In this document: positions 10,805 to 34,794 of the stretch, in pieces
How the letters are laid out: each line of letters starts with the position of its first letter
Numbering within the stretch: position 1 is the first letter of the stretch
Assembly (NCBI GenBank): GCA_963281255.1
Contig: OY725488.1
Span: 7,289,524 to 7,353,523, forward strand
Source of the DNA: Aphrocallistes beatrix
Lineage: Eukaryota; Porifera; Hexactinellida; Sceptrulophora; Aphrocallistidae
Direction of reading: 5' to 3'
Length of the DNA: 64,000 bases
Notes under the pieces: model-generated
What the model was told of the DNA's origin: nothing
What the model saw: the letters and a program-made list of their open reading frames with translations, nothing else
The model's database searches: none
Position numbers and translations under genes: made by a program

Positions 10805-11574
10805 AATCATTTAGGAGTTGGAACACTGGATTATTTCTACTTTTATAATATACATATATATACTGTATTTATATATGTTTGCAAGTTTGGTATAATTATT
10901 TCTTAAATTTAAATAGTAAGTTGTTAAAAAGAAAGCATCCTGATCAAATGTGAGTTTGTTCACTAAAATACAGCCTAAAGTCCCAGGAGGTCCTCTTCCA
11001 CAAAATATGTTCCCAAATTTATATGCGATAATTTGTAGTTATCCTGATGACTCCTTTTCTAGTGGTACTATATACCAAGTAAGCTGAGGATCCGATTAAC
11101 CAATGCTGCCTTTCCTTTCTAAACTAATTTCCATTCGAAATAATTTATTGAAAAAAGAGATCAGTCGACAGACTGACTGATGGATAAGGCACTAAAAATC
11201 TGTTTAAATATGATTAGTTTAGAGAATAGTAGAACCTGCTTAATCCGACTTTAGTTGGAGGTCGAAAAAATGCCGGATTAATAATTGTCGGATTATACAG
11301 TGCTAATTGTGGTTGAAAATGTTTCGAATTATGGAGGTTCTACTCTTCTGTATAAATATTACATAGCTAAAATATACTACGTAATTGTGATCATTCTTTG
11401 ATTCTAATTAATCCACAAGTGCCTCTCCACCCAATTCGACGTTATCGCTTTTTAATAGTTTTACAAAGACTATTAGTGACCAATAAACTTTTTAGTTTGA
11501 TTTTATCACCGTGATTCTGGTGTGCATTGTGACCAGTATCTTGTATTTTGGTTATTAAATATTATTTATCAGAA
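10805..11574. other. Spacer between AMSH and CYLD copy A, with a MITE
   Basis: This AT-rich spacer contains one recognisable small element at 11228-11344. The stretch just before the CYLD start (from about 11548) is repeated upstream of the other CYLD copies, so promoter-proximal sequence was included in the duplications. Confidence 0.5.
11228..11344. mobile_element. Pogo-like MITE, ~117 bp
   Basis: The ends are inverted repeats: AGTAGAACCTGCTTAATCCGA on the left, and on the right the complement of AGTAGAACCTCCATAATTCGA. The inner sequence again has GGATTA/TAATCC-type phrases. The element has no coding capacity. TAATCCGA and AGTAGAACCT are typical of pogo-derived MITEs. Confidence 0.6.
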
Positions 11575-14199
11575 ATGAACTTCGGACTAGATTCCTTGCT
11601 AACAGACAATGGTAAAAGATATGTTGAATTCAAAATATTGACTGCTGAGAAATTACTATTGAATGAAATTGAATGGATTGATTTAGACTATTCACTTGTA
11701 CACCAAGTTCAAGATCTCATTTTCTCAACTAAACAGCGAGAAGAGAAGAGATATCTACGTAAAGGTGAAATAATAGCGAGCCATAGTCGATTCGGAACGG
11801 TGGTTGAAAAAAATTCATACATCTTGATTGACTATTGGCTTGAGAATAGAGAAAGAAAATTTCCTATCATAAGAGACATAGATATTCCTAGCAAGCATCT
11901 TATAGATATTGATAGAAAACAGTTAGCAGCTCTTCTCACTGTCTATGATTATCCCAGCCGTATCAAATTTAGGATTGAAGATTTTTTAATCCTAGATCAG
12001 TATCTTAATCTAACAGAAGGTATTGTAGTAACAATCCGTGATCCGAATACCAATAAAGAATGTACTGGAAAAATATTTCGATCAGAATTGGTTAATTTTA
12101 AATTTTTTCACTTTCTTCGATTTGGTTCTAAGGAAATCCGTTTTGGAATTGATTCGTTGATCCAATTATCTTATGTAAAGGATCCACCTGCTTCCTCGCA
12201 AGAGTATTTAGCGAAGCAACAAGGTCAATTGTATAGTCAATACCAAACCTCCAAGATAAATGCTGCTGGTACTGTACAACCAGAACACCCAATTCACAAT
12301 AATAAATCCACCACGTCAATCCCACATCACCCCCTGCATCCGGTTCCTGACTCCTACAATAACAAATATCCGCAAACTGCTGCCATTCATCAACCTGAAT
12401 TACCCAACACACTTCCTAAAACTGCTCCACCTGGTGTTGGATATACTGATAAAGATATGCATTTCCCGAGAAAAGAACCAAAACATCACAACTACGAACA
12501 AGATAAGAACGCTGCCACTCAAGGAAGTGATGCTGTCCCTTTGAATGATTCTGACCCCGTACCACTCAATTCATATGGTGTAGTTAAGGACTGTATCGTC
12601 AAGGTAAAACAGATAATTCACCTGGTATCCTTATTAATTATGGATTATATATTCCTGTACTATTTTTGTAGGTAAAACTGAAAGAAAAACATTATACTGG
12701 GAGAGTAGTGTGGATTGGAGAATTTAAGGCTGTCCCTACCCATGCCTGGGTGTTGATTGAGACAGAGAATAGACGTGAAGATTTAAATGAAAAAACATCG
12801 ATAGATGAAGCAAATGGGATGAAATATGGAGTTCGAATTGGAAATGTTAAGCCTGGACACGGTTTGTTTGTTCCCGCGGAGAGGTGTAAAGTTATTGTAC
12901 CAGAGGACATTCAATGTAATAAACTCCCTCAATCTTCTCTGATTGGATCTCCGAATGAGTTCGACCCCATGACTGCTACCATCATATCTGGAGAGTTTGT
13001 CCCTCCAATCAAAGACGTGAAGAAGATACTGGGCTTGAAGAAGGGGATACAAGGACTGGACAACTCTTGCTACATGGACGCATCTCTGTTCGGAATGTTC
13101 TGCTTCAATGAGAGACTGGATGACATCTTCCTCAAGACATCTCAAGAATCTGACAGGAAAAATTCTAGGTTACAAAAATCTTTTAATTGATGTTTACTGT
13201 ACTAATGTATGATGTAATTATGTGCTAACCCTGTTTAGTGTTGAGAGATACACAGTGGTACAGAAGATACTGAAGGAGAGGATCGTGTATCCTCTCAGGA
13301 AGGAAGGGTTCGTACGAGCAGACCAGATTTTGCTGCTGAGACACAAGCTAGATGAGGCGGGAGTTGTGGATGGGCTTCTTGACAGGGAAAAAGATCCAGA
13401 AGAGTTCTTGACCTGTTTACTACAACATGTTCTAAATGTGCAGCCTTACCTGAAGATCAGAGGTGCGAGGAATGAAGATGGATTCTTCTTTCAAATATTC
13501 ACTCACAGAAGACCTCACATCAACTTACCGACAGTGCAGTTATTGCTAGAGCACGCATTCCGAGAAGATAAGCTGATGCTAGCAGAAGTTCCTCAGTTCT
13601 TCCTAATTCAGATGCCTCGTGACGGGAAACACTTCCGTCTCTACCCTCACATAGTTCCTAGCTTGACGCTAGACATTTCTAACATCACTCAATCCGTGTA
13701 CAGTCCCAAGTGTGTCTTGTGCTCCCGACTAGCCGAATTCAGGTGTGAAGAATGTGAGAAGAGTGAGTTGTACGATCCGAGGAAAGTGTACATTCATTAC
13801 TGCAAAAATTGTAGTGATTTGCACACCGACCAGACTAAGCATACTCCAACACAACTTACTATTAAACCGAAACAACAGCAAGATGCCGCTCAGATGAAGT
13901 TGTTCGCTGTTCTCACCATTGAAATAGCACACTATGTGTGTTTCGCTAAGTGCGGGGCAAATCCTCATGACTGGGTGATGTTTGACAGTATGCATGACAG
14001 AATTGAAGAAAGTCTGTCTAGTCGTAACGTCCCTAATGTAGTACATCTCCCTGACTTAGAAGATTGGCTAGCCGACCCAGAAAAACTTTGTAAAGTTTCA
14101 GACAGAGACGCTAAGAAAACTGTCCCCGATTATATCCGTCGCCTGACACAGGACGTGTACGTGTGCATGTACTACTCAGCGGTGAATGAAATGTTTTGA
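11575..14199 (+). CDS. CYLD: CYLD-like deubiquitinase, copy A (intact)
   Basis: CYLD is a USP-type deubiquitinase that trims K63 and Met1 chains and restrains NF-kB and JNK signalling. Exons: 11575-12603, 12672-13168 and 13239-14199, with 68- and 70-base GT-AG introns and consistent phases, giving 828 residues (human 956). Exon 1 (residues 1-343) is poorly conserved and ends in a Pro/His/Asn-rich linker. Residues ~345-425 form a CAP-Gly-like domain (GRVVWIGEF ... GHGLFVPAERCK). The catalytic domain follows, with Cys476 in GLDNSCYMD, His740 in IAHYVCF and Asp758 in WVMFDSM; the His-Asp spacing of 18 equals that of human CYLD. A zinc-binding B-box-like insert starts at CVLC (residue 667). The KDPEEFL phrase is typical of CYLD. 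The start is the first ATG of the frame and is shared by the other copies. Confidence 0.92.
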
Positions 14200-15246
14200 T
14201 TGATACTTGCATTTTTGTTTTTACCTTTGAACTTTCTGTGTATTACATTATAATTATGTTATAGAGTAGGAGAGTGTACACCCCACACATGCAGACTAAT
14301 GCTCAGTCCTGTTATTGTTAACTATTTGCTCATGTGCTGTGCATTTGGTATTTTGTTCTGAGTCCTAATTATTTGATAATATTATCCTTCTTATGCACTC
14401 CAACTCTGTTACCTTGACTTTACTTGACGAGAGAGTTCTACAAAAATGTTGTGTGACTTGAGCCCACATTTATAATTCCTTGTCTAGACAACTTCAACAA
14501 TGCTAGCTGATCGACCTTAACCTTGAGAGCTCTATGTTTATTTTTAGTCCAGCTGAGGTGCCTTGTGGCGTGCACGGCGTAATACCTCCGTCTGTATCGT
14601 ATGTGTATGATCCGCACGCCCGATCCTGCGAACTCTCAACAAGAGGGTACTCTTGCACGAAACGACTCAGGATGGCATGTGCAAATCATGAGATATTGTA
14701 CAATTGTATTACACCAGTGGTTCTAAATCGTGAGATAATGGTGAGTGATGGTCTCAAATAATAGCGAAAATCGTGAGACACACGACAGGGTCTTGAGAGC
14801 TGAGAGGCCTCAGTTATGCTAATCTAGATAAGAAACGTAAACTCTGTTATGTGTATGGAATGGAAGGTTTCGCTTTAATCGATACTTCAACATCTAAGAT
14901 TCACACATTTTTCAATCCAATATTAATTTGATTTTTTAAAAATGCAATTAAAAATAAACTAAGAAGGACTTACTTATATAATGGAGTATTCTCAATTTGT
15001 TCATTAAATTCCGTCGATCAGCTTCGATTAGTAGTATTGGTTTGTTGTGATAATATTTTTTAGGTTCACTACGTTCAATATTATACGCCGGTTTAGTTTA
15101 GGGTATTTGTGTTGAATAATTTGTTTTCGTTTCCTTTAAAGATGCAGATATGTGAGTAGAACTGTTTGAATATCCCAGTAATGCATAGCTTAGATTAGCC
15201 CAGTGAACATCATATTATTTTAGTTATTAAATATTATTTATCAGAA
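14200..15246. repeat. Downstream block of the CYLD duplication unit (first copy)
   Basis: The kilobase after copy A matches the stretch after copy B (33772-34794) almost base for base over long phrases, such as AGTAGGAGAGTGTACACCCC and GGTGCCTTGTGGCGTGCACG. The duplication unit was therefore one CYLD gene plus about 1 kb of 3' sequence, roughly 3.7 kb. Short open frames inside (14534-14761) are not convincing genes. Confidence 0.8.
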
Positions 15247-15736
15247 ATGAACTTCGGACTAGATTCCTTGCTAACAGACAATGGTAAAAGATATGTTGAA
15301 TTCAAAATATTGACTGCTGAGAAATTACTATCGAATTAAATTGACTGGATTGATTTAGACTATTCACTTGTACACCAAGTTCAAGATCTCATTTTCTCAA
15401 CTAAACAGCGAGAAGAGAAGAAATATCTACTTAAAGGTGAAATAATAGCTCGCTATAGTCGATTCGGATATGTGATTGAAAACAATTCATACATCTTGAT
15501 TGACTATTGGCTTGAGAATAGAGAAAGAAAATTTCCTATCATAAGAAACATAGATATTCCTAGCAAGCATCTTATAGATATTGATAGAAGACAGTTAGCA
15601 GCTCTTCTCACTGTCTATGATTATCCCAGCCGTATCAAATTTATGTTTGATGATTTTATTATCCTAGAACAGTATCTTAATATAACAGCAGGTATTGTAG
15701 TAACAATCCGTGATCCGAATACCAATAAAGAATGTA
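15247..15736 (+). pseudogene. CYLD-like copy B, left part of exon 1
   Basis: The ATG at 15247 starts the same protein as copy A (MNFGLDSLLTDNGKRYVEF), but an in-frame TAA at 15337-15339 replaces the Glu codon in the NEIE phrase. The homology stops abruptly at 15736, where a pogo-like end (CAGTACACCCTCGC) begins after a TA. Bases 15470-15736 are repeated, at about 98% by eye, at 27494-27757, where the gene resumes on the far side of a ~12-kb block. This left part has the variant phrase MFDDFIILEQYL, shared with the right part of copy B and different from copies A and C, so both parts belong to one lineage. Confidence 0.85.
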
Positions 15737-15900
15737 CAGTACACCCTCGCTAAACCGAACCTCGCTAGTCCGAACCCTCGCTAATCCGAACACTTCATTC
15801 TTACAATCCGAATACCCGAAATATAATCTTATTCACCTCTATGCTTTAAATCAACGTTTATAATATTATATATTTCAATAAGATTTGATAGACTCTATGC
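15737..15900 (+). mobile_element. Pogo-like element, left end inserted at TA in CYLD copy B
   Basis: The element starts CAGTACACCCTCGCTAAACC directly after a TA dinucleotide of the gene. It carries three near-repeats of CCTCGCTAAWCCGAAC between 15743 and 15790, the typical terminal sequence of pogo/Tigger-like elements. The right end was not found; sequence from about 15900 belongs to something else. Confidence 0.6.
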
Positions 15901-16032
15901 ATTATGTGGAACGGGGTAAGTCTGGTACTCGTGCTCGGGAGCTATTTAGTGCGTGGGCCACTTCTTGGAGGATTGATGGCCACTAGTCTTTTTCCAACTC
16001 TCGGTCAGCAAGCATACACCTTAGAGTCTGCT

Positions 16033-16617
16033 TTAAAATGTTCCACTCTGCCTACCCGTCTCCCTGCGGTGGTAGGGCGAAGATCCAAGTTTTCCAATTC
16101 CTAATTCACTCAAGGCCTTGTGGATTTCAGTGCCATCGACATTCGGGCCTTGGTCACTTAGAAACGCTTCTGGGTTCCGTGTTGATTGATTCAAGACGTG
16201 TTTAACGCTTTGAGAATGGACCTGAAGTTCGATCTCGCATGGGTGCCACTTGGAGTATAGGTCAGTCATTGGTAGGAAGTACCTGCTATTTTCGCTCCAA
16301 GGCAAAGTTGCTACATCATAAGCGACGATTTGTTGTGGTCTGTTCGCAGCAGAGTTAGGTGTTAGAGGCTCGTTGCTCTTTGTCTTGGATTTCTCTCGAT
16401 GGCAGATGTTGCATTCATTTGCATTCTTTATATATATGCTGCTGGGTGTAGCGGGGAGGATACAGGAGGTGCTGAGGGGTTTGTAATACTGTCTCCCTTG
16501 GCCAGCTCCCTCACCGACATGAGAGTTCTGGAGTCCTACATACTCTTCAGGATCCGCTGCTCCTCCTTCTTCTGATGTCCAGCTTCGTTTCGATCGTTCG
16601 AGCGGCGATCTTTTCAA
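16033..16617 (-). mobile_element. Ty3/gypsy-type integrase fossil
   Basis: The minus strand encodes a fragment of retroelement integrase, with a zinc-binding type C-x2-C phrase (ECNIC) followed by catalytic-core phrases such as SDQGPNVDG and the SPYH block. It covers roughly one domain and a half; homology may extend down to about 15900. It is a fragment without LTRs, abutting a Helitron piece at 16618. It appears less decayed than the integrase fossil at 1386-1740, so it is probably younger. Confidence 0.65.
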
Positions 16618-17223
16618 CTCAGAGTGCTGGTCCAGAGACTGACCTTGCTCTCCGCCCTCTCCTCTCTCTCTGGTGCTAAGCTTTTAGTTTGGGATGAAGC
16701 TCCTATGATGCATAAACATACTGCTGAATGTATAGATCGGACATTGAGAGATCTCTGCTCCAATGATCTACCATTTGGCAGCAAAGTTATTGCATTTGGA
16801 GGTGACTTCCGACAAATCCAACCCATCATTAGGCGTGGATCGAGGGCCGAGGTCGTATAAGCCTGCCTTAACAGATCTTCACTTTGGCACCATGTCAAAG
16901 TGATGAAATTGACCATAAATATGCGTCTTCGAATGGATTCATGTCAGGATCATGAAGAGGTGAGTAACTTCTCTGAACTTTTATTGAAGGTAGGAGAAGG
17001 TACTGAGCCTCATGATGAGAATAACATGATTAATTTAGATCACAAATATGTAGTACGTGGTGAGTCTATTGCAGACTTAGCCACTGCTATATATGGTAAC
17101 ATTAAAGAACCCTTTAATGATCGTTATTACATCACGACGCGTATTATGATGTCTCCTAAAAATGAGACAACTGAAAAGATAAATAAATATGTGATTGATC
17201 AACTTCCTGGAGAAGCAAATTGA
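16618..17223 (+). mobile_element. Helitron PIF1-like helicase fragment
   Basis: The frame encodes the middle of the Helitron helicase. It has the Walker-B phrase LLVWDEAPMMHKH, the sensor phrase AFGGDFRQIQP and the motif LTINMRLR. A TAA at 16858-16860 interrupts the frame after SRAEVV, and the next codons continue the homology (ACLNRSSLW). The nickase (Rep) domain and the Walker-A part of the helicase are absent. This is a dead internal piece of an autonomous Helitron, in tandem with repeats that follow at 17271. Confidence 0.75.
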
Positions 17224-17270
17224 AGAACTACAAGATGAAACAGCTCAAATGATTTGAAAAATGATAATAG

Positions 17271-18224
17271 AAAACATAAATATAATTTTAGAACAATTTT
17301 AAGACGTCGGACTTCGTGGTCGAGTGGTTAGTGAACTGTGTCGGTAATAAAGCGGCGCAGGTTCGAACCCCGATCATGTCAACAAATTTTCAATGTTGCA
17401 AATACCAAACATAAATACAATTTTAGAACATTTTTTAAGACGTCGAACTTCGTGGTCGAGTGGTTAGCGCACTGTGTCGTTAATAAAGCGACGCAGGTTC
17501 GAACCCCAACAAGTCAACAAATTTCCAATGTTGCAAATATCAAACATAAATACAATTTTAGAACATTTTCAAGACGTCGGACTTCGTGGTCGAGTGGTTA
17601 GCGCACTGTGTCGTTAATAAAACGACGCAGGTTCGAACCCCAATCAAGTCAACAAATTTCCAATGTTGCAAATACCAAACATAAATACAATTTTAGAACA
17701 TTTTTAAGACGTCGGACTTCGTGGTCAAGTGGTTAGCGCACTGTGTCGTTAATAAAGCGACGCAGGTTCGAACCCCGATCAAGTCAACAAATTTCCAATG
17801 TTGCAAATACGTAGTACCAAACATAAATACAATTTTAGAACATTTTTAAGACGTCGGACTTCGTGGTCGAGTGGTTAGCGCACTGTGTCGTTAATAAAGC
17901 GACGCAGGTTCGAACCCCGATCAAGTCAACAAATTTCCAATGTTGCAAATACGTAGTACCAAACATAAATACAATTTTAGAACATTTTTAAGACGTCGGA
18001 CTTCGTGGTCGAGTGGTTAGCGCACTGTGTCGTTAATAAAGCGACGCAGGTTCGAACCCCGATCAAGTCAACAAATCTCCAATGTTGCAAATAGTACCAA
18101 ACATAAATACAATTTTAGAACATTTTTAAGACGTCGGACTTCGTGGTCGAGTGGTTAGCGCACTGTGTCGGTAATAAAGCGACGCAGGATCGAATCCCGA
18201 TCAAGTCAACAAATTTTCAATGTT
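17271..18224 (+). repeat. Tandem array of seven tRNA-like (SINE-head) units
   Basis: Seven head-to-tail units have B-box cores (GGTTCGAACCCC) at 17360, 17496, 17630, 17765, 17907, 18049 and 18187 (last copy degenerate), a period of 134-142 bases. Each unit has an A-box-like phrase TGGTCGAGTGGTTAGCGC about 50 bases before the B box. GACTT and AAGTC at the two ends can pair as an acceptor stem, and TGTGTCG/CGACGCA as an extended anticodon stem with a 9-base loop. The T stem has mismatches and the loop is not tRNA-like, so these are tRNA-derived pol-III-type modules rather than working tRNAs. The AT-rich linker AAACATAAATACAATTTTAG is part of the unit. An 8-base phrase, GTAGTACC, distinguishes the later units. 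Confidence 0.8.
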
Positions 18225-21200
18225 CAAACCGGTTTGACTGGATGGCGAAACTGGTCAAACCGGTTTGGCTGGTTGACTAAACTGGTCAAACCGGTTTGGC
18301 TAGATAGCTAAACTAGTCAAACCGGTTTGACTGGATAGCTAAACTGGTCAAACCGATTTGACTGGATAGCTAACCTGGTCAAACCGGTTTGGCTGGATTG
18401 CTAAACTGGTCAAACCGATTTAACTGGATAGCTAAACTGGTCAAACCGATTTGACTGGATAGCTAAACTGGTCAAATCGGTTTGGCTGGCTGGCTGAACT
18501 GGTCAAACCGGTTTGGCTGGATAGCTAAACTGGTCAAACCGGTTTGGCTGGCTGGCTAAACTGGTCAAACCGATTTGACTGGATAGCTAAACTGGTCAAA
18601 CCGGTTTAACCAGTTCAGCCAGCAAACTAGGTTGGCTAAACTGGTCAAACCAGTTTGGCTGGATAGCCAAACTGGTCAAACCGGTTTGACTGGATAGCCA
18701 AACTGGTCAAACCGGTTTGACTAGATAGCTAAACTGGTCAAACCGGTTTGACTGGATAGCCAAACTGGTCAAACCGGTTTTGCTGGATAGCTAAACTGGT
18801 CAAACCGGTTTTGCTGGATAGCTAAACTGGTCAAACCGGTTTGACTGGATAGCTAAACTGGTCAAACCGGTTTGACTGCATAGCCAAACTGGTCAAACCG
18901 GTTTGATTAGATAGCTAAACTGGTCAAACCGGTTTGACTAGATAGCCAAACTGGTCAAACCGGTTTTGCTGGATAGCTAAACTGGTCAAACCGGTTTGGC
19001 TGGATAGCTAAACTGGTCAAACCGGTTTGGCTGGATAGCCAAACTGGTCAAACCGGTTTTGCTGGATAGCTAAACTGGTCAAACCCGTTTGACTGGATAG
19101 CTAAACTGGTCGAACCGGTTTGGCTGGCTGGCTGAACTGGTCAAACCGGTTTGGCTGGATAGCTAAACTGGTCAAACTGGTTTGACTGGATAGCTAAACT
19201 GGTCAAATCGATTTGACTGGATAACTAAACTGGTCAAATCGATTTGACTGGATAGCTAAACTGGTCAAACCTGTTTTGCTGGATAGCTAAACTGGTCAAA
19301 CCGGTTTGACTGGATAGCTAAACTGGTCAAATCGATTTGACTGGATAGCTAAACTGGTCAAACCTGTTTTGCTGGATAGCTAAAGTGGTCAAACCGGTTT
19401 GACTGGATAGCTAAACTGGTCAAACCGGTTTGGCTGGCTGGCTGAACTGGTCAAACCGGTTTGGCTGGATAGCTAAACTGGTCAAACCGGTTTGGCTGGC
19501 TGGCTGAACTGGTCAAACCGGTTTGGCTGGATAGCTAAACTGGTCAAACCGGTTTGGCTGGATAGCTAAACTGGTCAAATCGATTTGACTGGATAGCTAA
19601 ACTGGTCAAACCGGTTTGGCTGGATAGCTAAACTGGTCAAACCGGTTTGGCTGGATAGCTAAACTGGTCAAACCGGTTTGACTGGATAGCCAAACTGGTC
19701 AAACCGGTTTTGCTGGATAGCTAAACTGGTCAAACCCGTTTGACTGGATAGCTAAACTGGTCGAACCGGTTTGGCTGGCTGGCTGAACTGGTCAAACCGG
19801 TTTGGCTGGATAGCTAAACTGGTCAAACTGGTTTGACTGGATAGCTAAACTGGTCAAATCGATTTGACTGGATAGCTAAACTGGTCAAATCGATTTGACT
19901 GGATAGCTAAACTGGTCAAACCGGTTTGGCTGGATAGCTAAACTGGTCAAACCGGTTTGGCTGGATAGCTAAACTGGTCAAACCGGTTTGACTGGATAGC
20001 CAAACTGGTCAAACCGGTTTTGCTGGATAGCTAAACTGGTCAAACCCGTTTGACTGGATAGCTAAACTGGTCGAACCGGTTTGGCTGGCTGGCTGAACTG
20101 GTCAAACCGGTTTGGCTGGATAGCTAAACTGGTCAAACTGGTTTGACTGGATAGCTAAACTGGTCAAATCGATTTGACTGGATAGCTAAACTGGTCAAAT
20201 CGATTTGACTGGATAGCTAAACTGGTCAAACCTGTTTTGCTGGATAGCTAAACTGGTCAAACCGGTTTGACTGGATAGCTAAACTGGTCAAACCGGTTTG
20301 GCTGGATAGCTAAACTGGTCAAACCGGTTTGACTGGATAGCTAAACTGGTCAAACCGGTTTGGCTGGCTGGCTGAACTGGTCAAACCGTTTTGGCTGGAT
20401 AGCTAAACTGGTCAAACCGGTTTGGCTGGCTGGCTAAACTGGTCAAACCGATTTGACTAGATAGCTAAACTGGTCAAACCGATTTGACTGGATCGCTAAA
20501 CTGGTCAAACCGGTTTGGCTGGCTGGCTGAACTGGTCAAATCGATTTGACTGGATAGCTAAACTGGTCAAACCGGTTTGACTGGATAGCCAAACTGGTCA
20601 AACCGGTTTTGCTGGATAGCTAAACTGGTCAAACCCGTTTGACTGGATAGCTAAACTGGTCGAACCGGTTTGGCTGGCTGGCTGAACTGGTCAAACCGGT
20701 TTGGCTGGATAGCTAAACTGGTCAAACTGGTTTGACTGGATAGCTAAACTGGTCAAATCGATTTGACTGGATAACTAAACTGGTCAAATCGATTTGACTG
20801 GATAGCTAAACTGGTCAAACCTGTTTTGCTGGATAGCTAAACTGGTCAAACCGGTTTGACTGGATAGCTAAACTGGTCAAATCGATTTGACTGGATAGCT
20901 AAACTGGTCAAACCTGTTTTGCTGGATAGCTAAAGTGGTCAAACCGGTTTGACTGGATAGCTAAACTGGTCAAACCGGTTTGGCTGGCTGGCTGAACTGG
21001 TCAAACCGGTTTGGCTGGATAGCTAAACTGGTCAAACCGGTTTGGCTGGCTGGCTGAACTGGTCAAACCGGTTTGGCTGGATAGCTAAACTGGTCAAACC
21101 GGTTTGGCTGGATAGCTAAACTGGTCAAATCGATTTGACTGGATAGCTAAACTGGTCAAACCGGTTTGGCTGGATAGCTAAACTGGTCAAACCGGTTTGG

Positions 21201-24200
21201 CTGGATAGCTAAACTGGTCAAACCGGTTTGACTGGATAGCCAAACTGGTCAAACCGGTTTTGCTGGATAGCTAAACTGGTCAAACCCGTTTGACTGGATA
21301 GCTAAACTGGTCGAACCGGTTTGGCTGGCTGGCTGAACTGGTCAAACCGGTTTGGCTGGATAGCTAAACTGGTCAAACTGGTTTGACTGGATAGCTAAAC
21401 TGGTCAAATCGATTTGACTGGATAGCTAAACTGGTCAAATCGATTTGACTGGATAGCTAAACTGGTCAAACCTGTTTTGCTGGATAGCTAAACTGGTCAA
21501 ACCGGTTTGACTGGATAGCTAAACTGGTCAAACCGGTTTGGCTGGATAGCTAAACTGGTCAAACCGGTTTGACTGGATAGCTAAACTGGTCAAACCGGTT
21601 TGGCTGGCTGGCTGAACTGGTCAAACCGGTTTGGCTGGATAGCTAAACTGGTCAAACCGGTTTGGCTGGCTGGCTAAACTGGTCAAACCGATTTGACTAG
21701 ATAGCTAAACTGGTCAAACCGGTTTGGCTGGCTGGCTGAACTGGTCAAATCGATTTGACTGGATAGCTAAACTGGTCAAATCGATTTGACTGGATAGCTA
21801 AACTGGTCAAACCTGTTTTGCTGGATAGCTAAACTGGTCAAACCGGTTTGACTGGATAGCTAAACTGGTCAAATCGATTTGACTGGATAGCTAAACTGGT
21901 CAAACCTGTTTTGCTGGATAGCTAAACTGGTCAAACCGGTTTGACTGGATAGCTAAACTGGTCAAACCGGTTTGGCTGGCTGGCTGAACTGGTCAAACCG
22001 GTTTGGCTGGATAGCTAAACTGGTCAAACCGGTTTGGCTGGCTGGCTGAACTGGTCAAACCGGTTTGGCTGGATAGCTAAACTGGTCAAACCGGTTTGGC
22101 TGGATAGCTAAACTGGTCAAATCGATTTGACTGGATAGCTAAACTGGTCAAACCGGTTTGGCTGGATAGCTAAACTGGTCAAACCGGTTTGGCTGGATAG
22201 CTAAACTGGTCAAACCGGTTTGACTGGATAGCCAAACTGGTCAAACCGGTTTGGCTGGCTGGCTAAACTGGTCAAACCGATTTGACTAGATAGCTAAACT
22301 GATCAAACCGATTTGACTGGATAGCTAAACTGGTCAAATCGATTTGACTGGATAGCTAAACTGGTCAAACCTGTTTTGCTGGATAGCTAAAGTGGTCAAA
22401 CCGGTTTGACTGGATAGCTAAACTGGTCAAACCGGTTTGGCTGGCTGGCTGAACTGGTCAAACCGGTTTGGCTGGATAGCTAAACTGGTCAAACCGGTTT
22501 GGCTGGCTGGCTGAACTGGTCAAACCGGTTTGGCTGGATAGCTAAACTGGTCAAACCTGTTTTGCTGGATAGCTAAACTGGTCAAACCGGTTTGACTGGA
22601 TAGCTAAACTGGTCAAACCGGTTTGACTGGATAGCTAAACTGGTCAAACCGGTTTGGCTGGATAGCTAAACTGGTCAAACCGGTTTGACTGGATAGCTAA
22701 ACTGGTCAAACCGGTTTGGCTGGCTGGCTGAACTGGTCAAACCGGTTTGGCTGGATAGCTAAACTGGTCAAACCGGTTTGGCTGGCTGGCTAAACTGGTC
22801 AAACCGATTTGACTAGATAGCTAAACTGATCAAACCGATTTGACTGGATAGCTAAACTGGTCAAACCGGTTTGGCTGGCTGGCTGAACTGGTCAAATCGA
22901 TTTGACTGGATAGCTAAACTGGTCAAATCGATTTGACTGGATAGCTAAACTGGTCAAACCTGTTTTGCTGGATAGCTAAACTGGTCAAACCGGTTTGACT
23001 GGATAGCTAAACTGGTCAAATCGATTTGACTGGATAGCTAAACTGGTCAAACCTGTTTTGCTGGATAGCTAAACTGGTCAAACCGGTTTGACTGGATAGC
23101 TAAACTGGTCAAACCGGTTTGGCTGGCTGGCTGAACTGGTCAAACCGGTTTGGCTGGATAGCTAAACTGGTCAAACCGGTTTGGCTGGCTGGCTGAACTG
23201 GTCAAACCGGTTTGGCTGGATAGCTAAACTGGTCAAACCGGTTTGGCTGGATAGCTAAACTGGTCAAATCGATTTGACTGGATAGCTAAACTGGTCAAAC
23301 CGGTTTGGCTGGATAGCTAAACTGGTCAAACCGGTTTGGCTGGATAGCTAAACTGGTCAAACCGGTTTGACTGGATAGCCAAACTGGTCAAACCGGTTTG
23401 GCTGGCTGGCTAAACTGGTCAAACCGATTTGACTAGATAGCTAAACTGATCAAACCGATTTGACTGGATAGCTAAACTGGTCAAATCGATTTGACTGGAT
23501 AGCTAAACTGGTCAAACCTGTTTTGCTGGATAGCTAAAGTGGTCAAACCGGTTTGACTGGATAGCTAAACTGGTCAAACCGGTTTGGCTGGCTGGCTGAA
23601 CTGGTCAAACCGGTTTGGCTGGATAGCTAAACTGGTCAAACCGGTTTGGCTGGCTGGCTGAACTGGTCAAACCGGTTTGGCTGGATAGCTAAACTGGTCA
23701 AATCGATTTGACTGGATAGCTAAACTGGTCAAACCGGTTTGGCTGGATAGCTAAACTGGTCAAACCGGTTTGGCTGGATAGCTAAACTGGTCAAACCGGT
23801 TTGACTGGATAGCCAAACTGGTCAAACCGGTTTTGCTGGATAGCTAAACTGGTCAAACCCGTTTGACTGGATAGCTAAACTGGTCGAACCGGTTTGGCTG
23901 GCTGGCTGAACTGGTCAAACCGGTTTGGCTGGATAGCTAAACTGGTCAAACTGGTTTGACTGGATAGCTAAACTGGTCAAATCGATTTGACTGGATAGCT
24001 AAACTGGTCAAATCGATTTGACTGGATAGCTAAACTGGTCAAACCTGTTTTGCTGGATAGCTAAACTGGTCAAACCGGTTTGACTGGATAGCTAAACTGG
24101 TCAAACCGGTTTGGCTGGATAGCTAAACTGGTCAAACCGGTTTGACTGGATAGCTAAACTGGTCAAACCGGTTTGGCTGGCTGGCTGAACTGGTCAAACC

Positions 24201-27200
24201 GGTTTGGCTGGATAGCTAAACTGGTCAAACCGGTTTGGCTGGCTGGCTAAACTGGTCAAACCGATTTGACTAGATAGCTAAACTGATCAAACCGATTTGA
24301 CTGGATAGCTAAACTGGTCAAACCGGTTTGGCTGGCTGGCTGAACTGGTCAAATCGATTTGACTGGATAGCTAAACTGGTCAAATCGATTTGACTGGATA
24401 GCTAAACTGGTCAAACCTGTTTTGCTGGATAGCTAAACTGGTCAAACCGGTTTGACTGGATAGCTAAACTGGTCAAATCGATTTGACTGGATAGCTAAAC
24501 TGGTCAAACCTGTTTTGCTGGATAGCTAAACTGGTCAAACCGGTTTGACTGGATAGCTAAACTGGTCAAACCGGTTTGGCTGGCTGGCTGAACTGGTCAA
24601 ACCGGTTTGGCTGGATAGCTAAACTGGTCAAACCGGTTTGGCTGGCTGGCTGAACTGGTCAAACCGGTTTGGCTGGATAGCTAAACTGGTCAAACCGGTT
24701 TGGCTGGATAGCTAAACTGGTCAAATCGATTTGACTGGATAGCTAAACTGGTCAAACCGGTTTGGCTGGATAGCTAAACTGGTCAAACCGGTTTGGCTGG
24801 ATAGCTAAACTGGTCAAACCGGTTTGACTGGATAGCCAAACTGGTCAAACCGGTTTTGCTGGATAGCTAAACTGGTCAAACCCGTTTGACTGGATAGCTA
24901 AACTGGTCGAACCGGTTTGGCTGGCTGGCTGAACTGGTCAAACCGGTTTGGCTGGATAGCTAAACTGGTCAAACTGGTTTGACTGGATAGCTAAACTGGT
25001 CAAATCGATTTGACTGGATAGCTAAACTGGTCAAATCGATTTGACTGGATAGCTAAACTGGTCAAACCTGTTTTGCTGGATAGCTAAACTGGTCAAACCG
25101 GTTTGACTGGATAGCTAAACTGGTCAAACCGGTTTGGCTGGATAGCTAAACTGGTCAAACCGGTTTGACTGGATAGCTAAACTGGTCAAACCGGTTTGGC
25201 TGGCTGGCTGAACTGGTCAAACCGTTTTGGCTGGATAGCTAAACTGGTCAAACCGGTTTGGCTGGCTGGCTAAACTGGTCAAACCGATTTGACTAGATAG
25301 CTAAACTGGTCAAACCGATTTGACTGGATAGCTAAACTGGTCAAACCGGTTTGGCTGGCTGGCTGAACTGGTCAAATCGATTTGACTGGATAGCTAAACT
25401 GGTCAAATCGATTTGACTGGATAGCTAAACTGGTCAAACCTGTTTTGCTGGATAGCTAAACTGGTCAAACCGGTTTGACTGGATAGCTAAACTGGTCAAA
25501 CCGGTTTGGCTGGATAGCTAAACTGGTCAAACCGGTTTGACTGGATAGCCAAACTGGTCAAACCGGTTTTGCTGGATAGCTAAACTGGTCAAACCCGTTT
25601 GACTGGATAGCTAAACTGGTCGAACCGGTTTGGCTGGCTGGCTGAACTGGTCAAACCGGTTTGGCTGGATAGCTAAACTGGTCAAACTGGTTTGACTGGA
25701 TAGCTAAACTGGTCAAATCGATTTGACTGGATAGCTAAACTGGTCAAATCGATTTGACTGGATAGCTAAACTGGTCAAACCTGTTTTGCTGGATAGCTAA
25801 ACTGGTCAAACCGGTTTGACTGGATAGCTAAACTGGTCAAACCGGTTTGGCTGGCTGGCTGAACTGGTCAAACCGGTTTGGCTGGATAGCTAAACTGGTC
25901 AAACCGGTTTGGCTGGCTGGCTGAACTGGTCAAACCGGTTTGGCTGGATAGCTAAACTGGTCAAACCGGTTTGGCTGGATAGCTAAACTGGTCAAATCGA
26001 TTTGACTGGATAGCTAAACTGGTCAAACCGGTTTGGCTGGATAGCTAAACTGGTCAAACCGGTTTGACTGGATAGCCAAACTGGTCAAACCGGTTTTGCT
26101 GGATAGCTAAACTGGTCAAACCCGTTTGACTGGATAGCTAAACTGGTCGAACCGGTTTGGCTGGCTGGCTGAACTGGTCAAACCGGTTTGGCTGGATAGC
26201 TAAACTGGTCAAATCGATTTGACTGGATAGCTAAACTGGTCAAATCGATTTGACTGGATAGCTAAACTGGTCAAATCGATTTGACTGGATAGCTAAACTG
26301 GTCAAACCTGTTTTGCTGGATAGCTAAACTGGTCAAACCGGTTTGACTGGATAGCTAAACTGGTCAAACCGGTTTGGCTGGATAGCTAAACTGGTCAAAC
26401 CGGTTTGACTGGATAGCTAAACTGGTCAAACCGGTTTGGCTGGCTAGCTGAACTGGTCAAACCGGTTTGGCTGGATAGCTAAACTGGTCAAACCGGTTTG
26501 ACTGGATAGCTAAACTGGTCAAACCGGTTTGGCTGGATAGCTAAACTGGTCAAACCGGTTTGACTGGATAGCTAAACTGGTCAAACCGGTTTGGCTGGCT
26601 AGCTGAACTGGTCAAACCGGTTTGGCTGGATAGCTAAACTGGTCAAACCGGTTTGGCTGGCTGGCTAAACTGGTCAAACCGATTTGACTAGATAGCTAAA
26701 CTGGTCAAACCGATTTGACTGGATAGCTAAACTGGTCAAACCGGTTTGGCTGGCTGGCTGAACTGGTCAAACTGGTTTGGCTGGATAGCTAAACTGGTCA
26801 AACCGGTTTTGCTGGATAGCTAAACTGGTCAAACTGGTTTGACTGGATAGCTAAACTGGTCAAACCGGTTTGACTGGATAGCCAAACTGGTCAAACCGGT
26901 TTTGCTGAATAGCTAAACTAGTCAAATCGATTTGATTGGATAGCTAAACTGGTCAAACCGGTTTGGCTGGATAGCCAAACTGGTCAAACCGGTTTTGCTG
27001 GATAGCTAAACTGGTCAAACCCGTTTGATTGGATAGCTAAACTGGTCAAACCGGTTTAGCTGGCTGGCTGAACTGGTCAAACCGGTTTGGCTGGCTGGCT
27101 GAACTGGTCAAACCGGTTTGGCTGGATAGCTAAACTGGTCAAACCGGTTTGGCTGGATAGCTAAACTGGTTTGACTGGATAGCTAAACTGGTCAAACCGG

Positions 27201-27243
27201 TTTGGCTGGCTGGCTAAACTGGTCAAACCGATTTGACTAGATA
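18225..27243. repeat. 31-bp minisatellite array, ~290 units, higher-order structure
   Basis: About 9 kb of head-to-tail units of 31 bases. A typical unit is AAACTGGTCAAACCGG followed by TTTGACTGGATAGCT. Several variant types alternate: GACTGGATAGCT, GGCTGGCTGGCT and TGCTGGATAGCT tails, with ACCGGT, ATCGAT, ACCTGT, ACCCGT or ACTGGT cores. Marked variants recur at exact multiples of 31. For example, the AAACCCGTTTGACTGG variant lies at 19081, 19732, 20042, 20631, 21282, 23855, 24878, 25591 and 26118. A block of about 50 units (1550 bp) from 19081 recurs from 20631. No open reading frame crosses the array. The left edge abuts the tRNA-like array and the right edge abuts a UPF1 fragment. Confidence 0.95.
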
Positions 27244-27494
27244 GACTGGCTTCTCTACGTCATGTCCCAGCAGCTTGTGGTAGATGTAGTAGCTGACGCT
27301 GTTGTCATCGATAGCGAAGGTTTTCAATCCGTTCAACATTCGATCGAAACTGGTTCGCTTCCAGACGAAATCCACACTGAAGTTGTGCGTGCACTCTGTA
27401 GGGACGTTACTGCTGGAACGCAGTTCTAAGCCTACTTTTTCTCCGAAGCTGTTAGGCACTTTCACAACGTGGCCCACTCCTTCCCAATGCTTGT
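27244..27494 (-). pseudogene. UPF1 (RENT1) gene fragment
   Basis: The minus strand encodes about 83 residues that match the 1B region of the RNA helicase UPF1, the core factor of nonsense-mediated decay. Recognisable phrases are [27 protein letters not shown] and [12 protein letters not shown]. Neither the CH domain before it nor the Walker-A helicase motif after it is present. The frame is uninterrupted over the fragment, and no splice junction was identified at its edges. It is wedged between the minisatellite and the resumption of CYLD copy B, which suggests capture by a mobile element or filler DNA. The complete UPF1 gene must lie elsewhere. Confidence 0.8.
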
Positions 27495-28335
27495 GTGATT
27501 GAAAACAATTCAACATCTTGATTGACTATTGGCTTGAGAATAGAGAAAGAAAATTTCCTATCATAAGAAACATAGATATTCCTAGCAAGCATCTTACAGA
27601 TATTGATAGAAGACAGTTAGCAGCTCTTCTCACTGTCTATGATTATCCCAGCCGTATCAAATTTATGTTTGATGATTTTATTATCCTAGAACAGTATCTT
27701 AATATAACAGCAGGTGTTGGAGTAACAATCCGTGATCCGAATACCAATAAAGAATGCACTGGAAAAATATTTCGATCAGAATTGGTTAATTTTAAAATTT
27801 TTCACTTTCTTCGATTTGGTTCTAAAGAAATCCGTTTTGGAATTGATTCGTTAATCCAAGTATCTTATGGGAAAGCTCCATCTGCTCCCGATCAAGAGTT
27901 TTTAGTGAAGCAACAAAGTCAATTGTATAATAAATACCAAACCTCCAAGATAAATGCTGCTGGTACTGTACAACCAGAACACTCAATTCACAATAATAAA
28001 TCAACCAAGTCAAATCCTCATCAACCCTGCATCCGATTCCTGACTCCTACAATAACAAATATCCGCAAAATGCTGCCATTAATCAACCTGAATTACCCAA
28101 CACACTTCCTAAAACTGCTCCACCTGGTGTTGGATGTAATGATAAAGATATGCATTTCCCGAGAAATGAACCAAAACATCACAACTACGAACAAGATAAG
28201 AACGCTGCCACTCAAGGAAGTGATGCTGTCCTTTTGAATGATTCTGATCCCGTACCACTCAATTCACATGGTGTAGTTAAGGACTGTATCGTCAAGGTAA
28301 TACTGCTAATTCACATGGTAGCTTTATTAATACAA

Positions 28336-29800
28336 GCGCGCTTCGCGCACTTACGTAGCATGGCTAGCGAACTGTGTTCGCAGAATCACCCTGCAGGTGC
28401 CTGGAAATATCAACAAATTCAGAAGTCCCTACGGGTGCAAAATATTGATTATTACCAATAATCCATTTCAAATTTGCTTGCTTAATGAATCTATTGTAAA
28501 TAAAAAGCATTCAAAATAAGATCGAAAGTACGATATTTGGGATCTACACCCTTAATAACAACATGTCAATAGTTGAAAGCTAGTTTTTATCACATTTTTG
28601 AGATTTGTTTACTTGATGTATCTAATGTAAACAAAAAGTAAACAAATAATTTATCATATAGATTCAAAAATGCAATATTAAGAATGAGGCAGATTCCTAA
28701 AACCCCAGATCAACAGTAGAAAGATAGTTTCTAGTATGTTTTTGAGATATGTTTACTTTATGTTCCTGTTTCTATTGTAAACAAAAGTGAACAAATAATC
28801 TATCAACAATTCGAAAATACGAAATTTGGAATATACACCCATACTTACCAACCCATCTTGAAAATGTCCCTGGATTTTAGGAGTGAAATCCCTGGACTTC
28901 AATGGTAAATCTCTGATGTTATTATATTTTTAATTTTAATGACTATATATATTAACATGAATCAATATACTTCAATTTCGAAATTCTCGCTCGATCCGAT
29001 GGAAATCCCTGGATATGCAGGGAATTCCCTCGATTTTAAAAAAAGGCTAAATATATGCAATTTAAAATTTCGAAATGGATAAGTAAGCGATTTAGGGAAA
29101 GGTTCATCGTATATAATGTCATCTAACGCGTTAAATAATCACTTGATCAAAATTCTAGAACAATTTTCGAAATTCGTGATCCAGGAAATTTTCCTAGATT
29201 CCTGAAGACTTGCTAACTAATGAGGAACATAAAATTATTCAATAAATTATTTAAACTGTATCAAAATAAAAATTATTATAGGCGAGTTAAAACTCAAAAT
29301 CCCTGGATTTTTCGTTAAATCCCTGGATAATCCAGGGATCCCTGGAGGGTTGGTAAGTATGTGTAACACCCCTAAAACCCATGTCATTTAAACTTGAAAG
29401 CTCGTCTCGAACCTATTTTTTGGAATTTATTTACTTTATGTCAACAGTTGGAAGCTACATAACCTTTTTTATTGCTATACACTAGGATATAATTAAGATA
29501 TACGTATAAGTTATTGCTTTGAAGTATTAATAACAATGACACTCCATTGAAATGTCGTTACACAATGATTTATATTGAAAGTATACAAGCATTGTATAGA
29601 AAAGGGTGAAAAATTGCTTTCCATTTTTTGCGGAGTTGTGAACATTTCGCTTAGATTTTCGAACTTAATCGTATACTCATCATTTGACACCTACATGCCA
29701 ATTTTCATATCTCTACAACTTGCCAATTCGAGCGAACAAACAAACAAAATCCTAGCTTGAATATATAAGTCAGATATATTATCGATTCCCATATATCTAT
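28336..29800. repeat. GC-head repeat family member in intron 1 of CYLD copy B
   Basis: A GC-rich head (ACAAGCGCGCTTCGCGCAC at 28336, to about 28412) is followed by degenerate ~140-base AT-rich units. Each unit contains TTTGTTTACTT..ATG and GTAAACAAA..GTAAACAAAT, then AAACCCCATGTCAACAGTTGG-like phrases. The member is split by the MITE at 28841-29360. Relatives lie at 30497-31125, 31127-31215 and 55252-55990. Confidence 0.65.
28841..29360. mobile_element. ~520-bp MITE with ATACTTACCAACCC termini
   Basis: The ends are perfect 14-base inverted repeats, ATACTTACCAACCC at 28841-28854 and its complement at 29347-29360. Inside, the phrase (A)ATCCCTGGA(T) and its complement recur several times near both ends. 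There is no coding capacity. The element is nested inside the GC-head repeat, so it is younger than that copy. Confidence 0.75.
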
Positions 29801-30496
29801 TCAGGTAAAACTAAAAGAAAACGAATATCTTGGGAGAGTTGTGTGGATTGGAGAATTTGAGGCTATTCCTAACCATGCCTGGGTATTGATTGAGACAGAG
29901 GATAGACGTGAAGATTTAAAGGAAAGAACATCGATAGCTGAGAGTTCGAATTGGAAATGTTAAGCCTGGACACGGTTTGTTTGTTCCCGCGGAGAGATGT
30001 AAAGTTATTGCACCAGAGGACATTCAATGTAATAAACTCCCTCAGTCTTCTCTGATTGGATCTCCGAATGAGTTCGACCCCATGACTGCTACCATAATAT
30101 CTGGAGAGTTTGTCCCTCCAATCAAAGAAGTGAAGAATATACTGGGCTTGAAGAAGGGGATACAAGGACTGGACAACTCTTGCTACATGGACGCGTCTCT
30201 GTTCGGAATGTTCTGCTTCAATGAGAGACTGGATGACATCTTCCTCAAGAGATCTCAAGAAGCTGGCAGGAAAAATTCTAGGTATGCGAAAACTAATCAA
30301 CATCGAGTATCTTAGCATAAAATTCAGTGCACCCCTAGGAGAGTATACATTAGAGACATTTCAAAATGCATACTCTTAATTTTTTGAGAATGAAAATGAT
30401 TGGCGCATGCTAACCGATCAATTATCTCCCTTTCATGTCATTGATGAATATCATGTACGTGTATAGGATCCAATCGAACTGACCAATTTTAATTAT

Positions 30497-32323: not shown

Positions 32324-33352
32324 TAGTAAGGATAGAATGACATTGGCTATTCCACCATCACATAGTATTCGTTTAGTTTGTATTAGCTTGTACGTATATA
32401 CTAATACATGATGATGTAATTTTATGCCAACCCTATGTTTAGTGTTGAGAGGTACACAGTGGTACAGAAGATACTGAAGGAGAGGATCGTGTATCCTCTC
32501 AGGAAGGAAGGGTTCGTACGAGCGGACCAGATTTTGCTGCTGAGACACAAGCTAGATGAGGCGGGAGTTGTGGATGGGCTTCTTGAAAGGGAAAAAGATC
32601 CAGAAGAGTTCTTGACCTGTTTACTACAACATGTTCTAAATGTGCAGCCTTATCTGAAGATCAGAGGTGCGAGGAATGAAGATGGGTTCTTCTTTCAAAT
32701 ATTCACTCACAGAAGACCTCACATCAACTTACCGACAGTGCAGTTATTGCTAGAGCACGCATTCCGAGAAGATAAGCTGATGCTAGCAGAAGTTCCTCAG
32801 TTCTTCCTAATTCAGATGCCTCGTGACGGGAAACACTTCCGTCTCTACCCTCACATAGTTCCTAGCTTGATGCTAGACATTTCTAACATCACTCAATCCG
32901 TGTACAGTCCCAAATGTGTCTTGTGCTCCCGACTAGCCGATTTCAGGTGTGAAGAATGTGAGAAGAGTGAGTTGTACGATCCGAGGAGAGTATACATCGA
33001 TTACTGTTCGGATTGTTCCAAATATCATAAACTCCAGACTAAGCACATTCCAACGCAACTTACTATTAAACCGAAACAACAGCAAGATGCCGCTCAGATG
33101 AAGTTGTTCGCTGTTCTCACCATTGAAATAGCACACTATGTGTGTTTCGCTAAGTGCGGGGCAAATCCTCATGACTGGGTGATGTTTGACAGTATGCATG
33201 ACAGAATTGAAGAAAGTCTGTCTAGTCGTAACGTCCCTAATGTAGTACATCTCCCTGACTTAGAAGATTGGCTAGCCGACCCAGAAAAACTTTGTAAAGT
33301 TTCAGACAGAGATGCTAAGAAAACTGTCCCCGATTATATTTGGCGCCTGACA

Positions 33353-33632
33353 CATGATGTTCTTCAGGGCATTCCTCGAACAACAAATGCCAAAAATCAG
33401 CTTTCTGTGCCTGGCAGTTTCTTCAATCAATTCGTTGCAGATATATCTAAACATGAATCGAGTTTTAATACTTAGGGCGTTCAATATGTTCCAGGCCCAA
33501 CTTTATAATTCGAAAGGCAACTGAAACAATGTATTTTAAATTCTTTTATTGTATTCGTTAGAGGATTATCTTTCTACTGGCAATTTGATTTGCTGTGATA
33601 ATATACTTATTGTGGTTAGCACACACGATTTA
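33353..33632 (+). repeat. 280-bp duplicate of 31482-31761 inserted in CYLD copy B exon 3
   Basis: The segment is identical by eye to 31482-31761, covering the end of the MULE piece and most of the left arm of the foldback element. It interrupts exon 3 after CGCCTGACAC. The 89 bases before it (33265-33352) are repeated right after it (33633-33721) with one mismatch. Confidence 0.9.
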
Positions 33633-33771: not shown

Positions 33772-34794
33772 TTGATACTTGCATTTTTGTTTTTACATTG
33801 ACAACTTTTTGTGTATTACATTATAATTATGTTATAGAGTAGGAGAGTGTACACCCCACACATGCAGACTAATGCTCAGTCCTGTTATTGTTAACTATTT
33901 GCTCATGTGCTGTGCATTTGGTATTTTGTTCTGCGTCCTAATTATTTGATAATATTATCCTTCTTATGCACTCCAACTCTGTTACCTTGACTTTACTTGA
34001 CGAGAGAGTTCTATAAAAATGTTATGGGACTTGAATCCACATTTATAATTCCTTGTCCAGACAACTTCAACAATGCAATGCTAGCTGATCGACCTTAACC
34101 TTGAGATCTTTATGTTTATTTTTAGTACAGCTGAGGTGCCTTGTGGCGTGCACGGCGTAATACCTCCGTCTGTATCGTATGTGTATGACGTACGTCCGTA
34201 CGCCCGATCCTGCGAACTCGCAACAAGAGGGTACGCTTGCACAAAAACGACTCAGATGGCATGTGCAAATCATGAGATATTTACAATTGTATTACGCCAG
34301 TGGTTCTAAATCGTGAGATAATAGTGAGTGATGGTCTCAAATAACAACGAAAATCGTGAGACACACGACGAGATCGTGAGAGCTGAGAAGCCTCACTTAT
34401 ACTAGTCTATATAGGAAACATAAACTCTGTTATGTGTATGGAATGGAAGGATTCGCTTTAATCGATACTTCAGGTCTTCAACATATAAGATTCACAAATG
34501 TTCTTTATTTTTAATTGCATTTTTAAAACATCAAATTAATTAGATGTTTTAAAAATGCAATTAAAAATAAACAGAGAAGGACTTACTTATATAATGGAGT
34601 GTTCTCAATATTTTTTTAGGTTCACTGCGTTCGATATTATACCCCGGTTTAGTTTAGGGTATTTGTGTTGAATAATTTGTTTTCGTTTCCTTTAAAGATG
34701 CAGATATGTGAGTAGAACTTTGAAAATCCCAGTAATGCATAGCTTAGATTGTGAACATCATATTATTTTAGTTATTAAATATTATTTATCAGAA
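33772..34794. repeat. Downstream block of the CYLD duplication unit (second copy)
   Basis: This matches 14200-15246. Differences include a perfect palindrome at 34504-34571 that the first copy lacks, and loss of some sequence before the start codon of copy C. No gene is supported inside. Confidence 0.8.
34504..34571. repeat. Perfect 29-bp palindrome arms with 10-base loop
   Basis: The left arm TTTATTTTTAATTGCATTTT (34504 onward, to 34532) is the exact complement of 34543-34571. The loop is AAATTAATTA. The equivalent place after copy A (about 14930-14955) has only the right arm. Confidence 0.9.

Follow-up and report, generated by a model that had tools for sequence, protein, structure and literature searches.

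The 31-bp minisatellite studied here occupies positions 18224–27244 of a 64,000-nucleotide stretch of contig OY725488.1 of the hexactinellid Aphrocallistes beatrix (assembly GCA_963281255.1, positions 7,289,524 to 7,353,523), hereafter the window. We consider it likely that this array is the variable number tandem repeat (VNTR) part of a dispersed composite repeat, a copy of which was carried into a CYLD-like paralogue and then grew from inside. The composite would have the order short leader, tRNA-like unit in up to ~10 copies, purine-rich linker (absent in some copies), and minisatellite. In the order of events that we infer for the window copy, a composite, together with a bit of the UPF1 gene, would have been carried into the CYLD-like paralogue within an 11.8-kb patchwork insertion, and the 31-bp array would have grown afterwards, tens of units at a time, through slippage or unequal exchange of blocks. 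This reading is built on the array and its neighbours, on the association of the two repeats at nearly all places read, on the uninterrupted paralogues, and on the contrast between the edges and the centre of the array, all of which are observed.

The 31-bp array and its growth

Tandem Repeats Finder (TRF) called the array at 18224–27244 with a period of 31, 290.7 copies, and 0% indels. A wrap-around parse divided it into 292 units; 288 measure exactly 31 bp and include 38 distinct sequences, and mean identity to the consensus TCAAACCGGTTTGGCTGGATAGCTAAACTGG is 94.1%; the number of full units is 288 or 287, depending on how 10 extra bases at the array end are taken. There are two indel sites, a short scrambled and partly inverted unit pair at ~18597–18643, near the left edge of an otherwise strictly phased array, and a 9-bp loss at 27166. 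A sequence-only reading of the window had described marked variants at multiples of 31 bases with almost no indel drift and had proposed writing out a unit-by-unit variant string; the parse bears out this description and gives a real array with strict phase and long exact blocks. With tandem units within the ~10–100 bp range and a length of kilobases, the array is a minisatellite. A coding array was considered and rejected, since no open reading frame of ≥120 amino acids lies inside it and both TAG and TAA are present in the unit.

The longest exact block comprises 28 units (868 bp) and runs from 19048 and again, unchanged, from 20598, an offset of 1550 bp or 50 units, which agrees with the ~1550-bp recurrence described earlier; at most 7 units were obtained in 300 shuffles of unit order. 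Other exact blocks of 27, 25, 22, and 19 units recur at offsets of 37, 47, 116, and 83 units. The same reading had compared this arrangement to the nested higher-order structure of centromeric satellites. Nested exact blocks are indeed present, but their offsets are irregular, so that the blocks reflect duplication within duplication, unlike the periodic higher-order repeats of alpha satellite. One-off variants were found in 14 of the 30 units at the left edge, in 1 of 246 in the middle, and in 8 of 16 at the right edge. The long exact blocks at unit multiples and the near absence of one-off variants from the middle also favor the earlier proposal of recent growth in blocks by unequal exchange or slippage. 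Growth of the array in blocks, from inside, is well supported; its mechanism is the part that we infer. The minisatellite is real and the process of its growth ordinary; its setting is unusual.

A tRNA-like partner genome-wide

The setting is a 7-copy array of a 142-bp tRNA-like unit, which directly adjoins the 31-bp array on its 5′ side. The genome searched comprises 100.5 Mb in 28 contigs and is compact, as had been supposed. The assembly-wide search for the 31-bp unit, also proposed in advance, was a best-candidate search and therefore gives a lower bound: at least seven arrays of 0.3–9 kb on at least six of the 28 contigs (C1, C3, C6, C13, C15, and C16). Every one of the seven is preceded by the tRNA-like array, and the same holds for two 18-bp relatives (L014 and L016). 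The tRNA-like repeat itself was found at no fewer than 42 places on at least nine of the 28 contigs (a hand tally, with 100 of 169 matches considered from one source).

A minisatellite stands on the 3′ side at 32 of the 33 tRNA-like places read. Nine of these places came from the 31-bp search, which favors VNTRs, 22 were picked by the tRNA-like part alone, and two are inverted far-end copies (L019 and L049); among the 22, the association holds for 21. When counted by TRF-called tRNA-like arrays, 28 of 29 have a minisatellite within ~620 bp on the 3′ side. The first 19 places from the tRNA-like search all have one (19/19), with units of 64–78 bp that carry the word AATGCC. Three places, L059, L060, and L061, were picked because no VNTR match was visible beside them. 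The short or broken tRNA-like copies L059 and L060 were both found to have an AATGCC-type minisatellite, with a 101-bp unit ~0.6–0.8 kb away in the former and a 40-bp unit in the latter; L061 is the exception. For the inverted tRNA-like copies at the far VNTR ends of L019 and L017 (the latter seen in L049), the VNTR likewise lies 3′ of the copy; a 62-bp inverted fragment at L020 was left out of the place counts. At nine further places, VNTR matches are located on the 3′ side as judged by coordinates alone.

The two parts behave differently between places. The tRNA-like part is ~75–99% alike in register (18 arrays) while the VNTR unit varies from place to place (18, 31, 40, 64–78, or 101 bp). 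A leader of ~20–55 bp is common to groups in most arrays. In 21 of the first 28 arrays, a linker of 161–622 bp that is rich in purines (63–73% A+G) precedes the VNTR; that of L012 (141 bp, 51% A+G) is not purine-rich, and the window, L009, L010, L011, L018, and L020 are essentially without a linker. The linker of L016 contains a microsatellite, (AAGGGT)13, at 3830–3909. Two minisatellites that stand beside tRNA-like arrays (L043–L049) are larger than that of the window and extend over ~60 kb with a 69-bp unit (C1:6522000–6581300) and ~45 kb with a 66-bp unit (C1:7599100–7643900). Both end regions of each match, and all sampled inner points (3/3 and 2/2, respectively) are full of the unit; an inverted tRNA-like copy closes the far end of the 45-kb array. 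Composites occupy limited zones of C1, C3, and C13, and not clearly of C6 (0 of 20,000 simulations for C1, P = 0.0002 for C3, 0.005 for C13, and 0.26 for C6, values that treat copies as independent, which duplication violates).

By pattern, 79 A-box units were found in 27 sources; in 59 of them the B box is perfect, and in 64 a T4 run follows downstream (no control run was made for these counts). As both boxes are often kept, transcription of the tRNA-like units by RNA polymerase III (Pol III) is a fair prediction from their motifs. Real tRNA genes were rejected as candidates: ARAGORN found none in the window, and Rfam gave no tRNA family in 15000–29000 at E up to 1. Rfam microRNA matches in the same interval were far below gathering scores.

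The mosaic insertion in a CYLD-like gene

A CYLD-like gene is present in the window in tandem copies, A at 11544–14179, C at 34764–37340, and between them B, which is broken into pieces at 15216–15737, 27495–28331, 29803–30283, and 32408–33354. Copy A aligns to C and to the B pieces at 91–96% identity. The name derives from 32435–33475, which matches the CYLD structure 2vhf (E=1.1e-51); none of seven CYLD-like open frames had a Pfam match above cut-off. Copies A and C are uninterrupted where B is broken. The left side of the break (15216–15737) is 95.4% identical to A at 11544–12065 and the right side (27495–28331) 93.1% identical to A at 11800–12638, and the overlap of the two B sides forms a 264-bp direct repeat, the copies of which are 98.5% identical. 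Since these flanking repeats are more alike than either is to A and C (98.5% vs 93–95%), the insertion would be younger than the paralogues. The 11.8 kb between the repeats and the repeats themselves consist of the following.

15471–15734, plus strand: left copy of the 264-bp direct repeat, belonging to CYLD-like copy B (98.5% to 27494–27756; contiguous in A and C)
16036–16683, minus strand: integrase core (rve)-like remnant (Pfam PF00665, E=1.3e-4, below the curated cut-off)
16576–17220, plus strand: broken PIF1-like helicase in two open pieces (PF05970, E=1.2e-20 and 4.2e-11)
17218–17271, plus strand: leader of ~54 bp, common to other composite repeats (94.4% identity with L009 over leader and first unit)
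17272–18228, plus strand: seven tandem copies of the 142-bp tRNA-like unit, carrying motifs similar to A and B boxes (TRF; same repeat at ≥42 genome places)
18224–27244, plus strand: 31-bp minisatellite (VNTR), 292 units (TRF and unit-by-unit parse)
27244–27493, minus strand: UPF1 exon fragment (1B domain), antisense to the array (PF18141, E=5e-13 for 27226–27525; 94.8% to L009:5428–5679)
27494–27756, plus strand: right copy of the 264-bp direct repeat, where CYLD-like copy B resumes (98.5% to the left copy)

The helicase pieces at 16576–17220 we take to be of Helitron type. Besides both arrays, the ~54 bp leader and 251 bp of UPF1 are common to the window and L009. At L009, 2.6 tRNA-like units and 27.4 31-bp units lie antisense inside a UPF1 gene, flanked by open pieces that have the UPF1 1B and zinc-binding domains on one side and the helicase domains on the other. 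A type III hammerhead ribozyme (57.9 bits, above the Rfam gathering score) is located near this UPF1 gene, at L009:8440–8493 on the plus strand. The transfer would have led from the UPF1 locus to the window, followed there by ~tenfold growth of the 31-bp array; shrinkage at L009 is the alternative. As just 3 of the 26 units of L009 have an identical counterpart in the window array, the two arrays would have been homogenised apart since. Together with its uninterrupted paralogues, the window copy offers a case that can be dated, a mosaic insertion flanked by large direct repeats in which the array would then have grown.

Spread, alternative readings and known systems

Sequence is shared well beyond the composite in three groups of copies (L021/L022/L025, L030/L031/L032/L035, and L009/L012). 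The 1.5 kb upstream of L021 and of L022 agree at 99%; L030, L031, L032, and L035 have 1.5–2.7 kb upstream and 0.4–1.6 kb downstream in common; and L009 and L012 have UPF1 gene parts in common on both sides. Such long shared flanks indicate that duplication of larger pieces of DNA explains part of the spread. As a copying route we favor segmental duplication over retrotransposition, no convincing sign of which was found (seven copies were checked for target-site duplication); a route through RNA is possible but unproven.

Several results weigh against the reading we prefer. At L061 (C1:7.007 Mb; L061:2065–2704) an inverted, TRF-called array of 2.3 units stands back to back with a plus-strand copy, and the 5 kb read there, ~2 kb on either side, is without a VNTR. 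The numbers of tRNA-like and VNTR places are lower bounds. Target-site duplications above background were found in none of seven copies tested, for which the ends used were uncertain, and no 3′ end common to all copies was found, so the data stop short of making the composite a transposable element in its own right. The 5′ heads differ between groups, and L011, L013, L018, and L034 are without a clearly shared leader. Few units of other arrays recur in the window array (3 of the 26 in L009, 12 of 68 in L010, and 20 of 55 in L011), and none of those in L012 (0/64), L013 (0/29), or L013b (0/10) does. The direction from UPF1 to the window is reconstructed, and the array length is that assembled in one assembly. 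As a separate observation on the heads, those of L017, L019, and L020 lie upstream of the tRNA-like array, and that of L019 is repeated on the far side of its VNTR; they resemble what we take to be the end of a hAT-type transposon.

Another explanation would be a mobile VNTR-composite element like primate SVA or LAVA, in which a Pol III-type tRNA-like head and a minisatellite body are copied through RNA by a long interspersed nuclear element. The fixed order of head and VNTR (32/33 places read) and the frequent B boxes and T4 runs of the A-box units (59/79 and 64/79, again without a control run) would suit such an element, and so would the 5′ ends, which vary in length within groups, and the A-runs after the VNTR in L010 and L011. 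The longest A-run after the VNTR is 2–9 in seven copies. However, the missing target-site duplications (0/7) and the lack of a common 3′ tail argue against it, several groups were spread as parts of larger duplications, and arrays of 45–60 kb would need later growth; judged by these sequence features, such an element is unlikely. Inflation of the array by misassembly, which would come easily to tandem repeats, they being hard to assemble, is quite improbable in view of the heterogeneous unit order and the coherent neighbours and flanking repeats. A centromere or heterochromatin seed, the kind of functional satellite considered in the sequence-only reading, would agree with the nested blocks and with the limited zones of composites on some contigs. 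We nevertheless consider it extremely improbable and have abandoned the centromere reading: 31-bp arrays were found on 6 of 28 contigs and the tRNA-like family on 9 of 28 (both lower bounds, and contigs need not be chromosomes), each 31-bp array stands beside a tRNA-like array, the other six are under 2.5 kb with one inside the UPF1 gene, larger sister-family minisatellites are present on the same contig, and the offsets of 50, 37, 47, 116, and 83 units have no regular higher-order period.

Two further explanations concern the unit itself. In one, the array would be a set of Grainyhead sites, with the 12-mer CAAACCGGTTTG (157 copies in the window array) recruiting the animal's Grainyhead protein and opening or organising chromatin. 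The available portions of two sources give AACCGGTT as the GRHL consensus, its core being CxxG (PMC13105062, preprint; PMC7471608), and according to the first of these its positions 3 and 6 (CxxG) are the most constrained and same-face spacing is preferred (PMC13105062, preprint). The 31-bp step is about three helical turns, the palindrome AAACCGGTTT occurs in 172 of 287 units, and AACNNGTT is kept in 222. The genome contains one CP2-domain match, which is Grainyhead-like (GRHL2 E=5e-38, GRHL1_C domain), and 329 copies of the 12-mer vs 1 of a reversed control; the core is present in the consensus of all seven 31-bp arrays. The octamer is less variable than the rest of the unit on average (5.5 vs 13.4 variant types per position among 119 distinct units), but the rest has a median of 5.0, and among 31 8-bp windows the octamer ranks just ninth from the lowest. 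Moreover, AAATCGATTT, which has no CxxG core, is found in 43 of 287 units, and no VNTR consensus examined with a unit of 40 to 101 bp contains AACCGGTT. A role of the array as Grainyhead sites, predicted from these motifs, is possible but unproven, and as the explanation of the array it is very doubtful. The 12-mer also occurs on C9 in the DNA of a Gly-rich open frame of 405 amino acids with QTGL repeats (L015:3907–5124, minus strand), without a tRNA-like array; this is probably a coincidence and was left out of the counts.

In the other, an RNA or DNA hairpin array would be under selection. The plus strand of the unit folds into TCAAA plus an 11-bp stem (−14.6 kcal/mol), and against 60 dinucleotide shuffles three units gave z=−11.7 and the 18-bp unit z=−5.4. 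Covariation was not found, however: among the 119 distinct units, pairing is 90.45% vs 90.40% in column shuffles, with 484 of 1000 shuffles reaching the observed value, and double changes are not enriched (605/1000 shuffles). A change of G14 to A makes an A–C mismatch in 130 of 288 units, and just one (L019) of eight 64–78-bp consensus units tested folds better than shuffles at z below −3. We consider selection on the hairpin highly improbable; the modelled fold may ease slippage.

Hypervariable minisatellites have a similar unit length, block-wise growth, and edge variants; unlike them, the present repeat is almost constantly linked to a tRNA-like array (32/33 places read). Non-autonomous Helitrons with internal tandem repeats are also to be compared, and a Helitron-type helicase remnant and a UPF1 gene fragment do lie beside the window copy. 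No Helitron ends were identified around the array, where ends were not searched for and the PIF1-like pieces at 16576–17220 are the only such trace. Helitrons are abundant, with 106 Helitron_like_N matches in the genome and some open frames of ~1500–1970 amino acids; by eye, the matches and the composites mostly occupy different parts of the contigs. With Foldback-type transposons (FB, Galileo, Tetris), as described in the portions of the sources available, the composite has in common tandem-repeat parts able to seed satellites, and inverted tRNA-like copies are found beyond the VNTR at L019, L020, and L049 (the far end of the L017 array). Unlike those transposons, no inverted partner is present in 13 of 15 sources with the VNTR ending inside the stretch read, nor in the window, and no transposase was identified as part of the composite.

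The closest resemblance is to the VNTR composites of hominoids (SVA, LAVA, PVA, and FVA), in which, according to the available part of the source, remodelling of the VNTR takes place at the DNA level and arrays of conserved units are present at its ends, and which are described there as specific to hominoid primates (PMC4432496). As far as that account extends, both have a part like a short interspersed nuclear element (SINE) and a VNTR in fixed order. In the accessible part of a further source, SVA-bearing segmental duplications in apes are reported, one with large flanking direct repeats (PMC9132208), and large direct repeats likewise flank the insertion in the window. The present composite differs in its tandem tRNA-like head, in having no Alu-like or SINE-R part that we could see, in a VNTR unit that differs between copies, in arrays of up to ~60 kb, in the target-site duplication not found in seven copies, and in belonging to another kind of animal. 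In structure and growth the window array works like part of a VNTR composite; its membership of the class is not established, since target-site duplications were not found and the poly-A end is unclear. Among titles and beginnings of abstracts of open-licence papers, no description of this composite was found. Tentatively, and with more doubt than confidence, we suggest a VNTR-composite family of independent origin in the compact genome of an invertebrate, in which tRNA-like repeats of Pol III type are joined to minisatellites that change fast; it would have spread mainly by segmental duplication at the DNA level and would include a 31-/18-bp sub-family built on Grainyhead sites. If the same two-part design did arise in so distant an animal, one could compare the ways in which a minisatellite comes to be joined to a SINE-like part, and the reasons for which the head persists when the minisatellite is replaced.

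Tandem repeats of 141 bp form another dispersed family, which is present in the window at 55338–55919 and at L010, L018, L022, L029, and L061, in some cases close after the VNTR.

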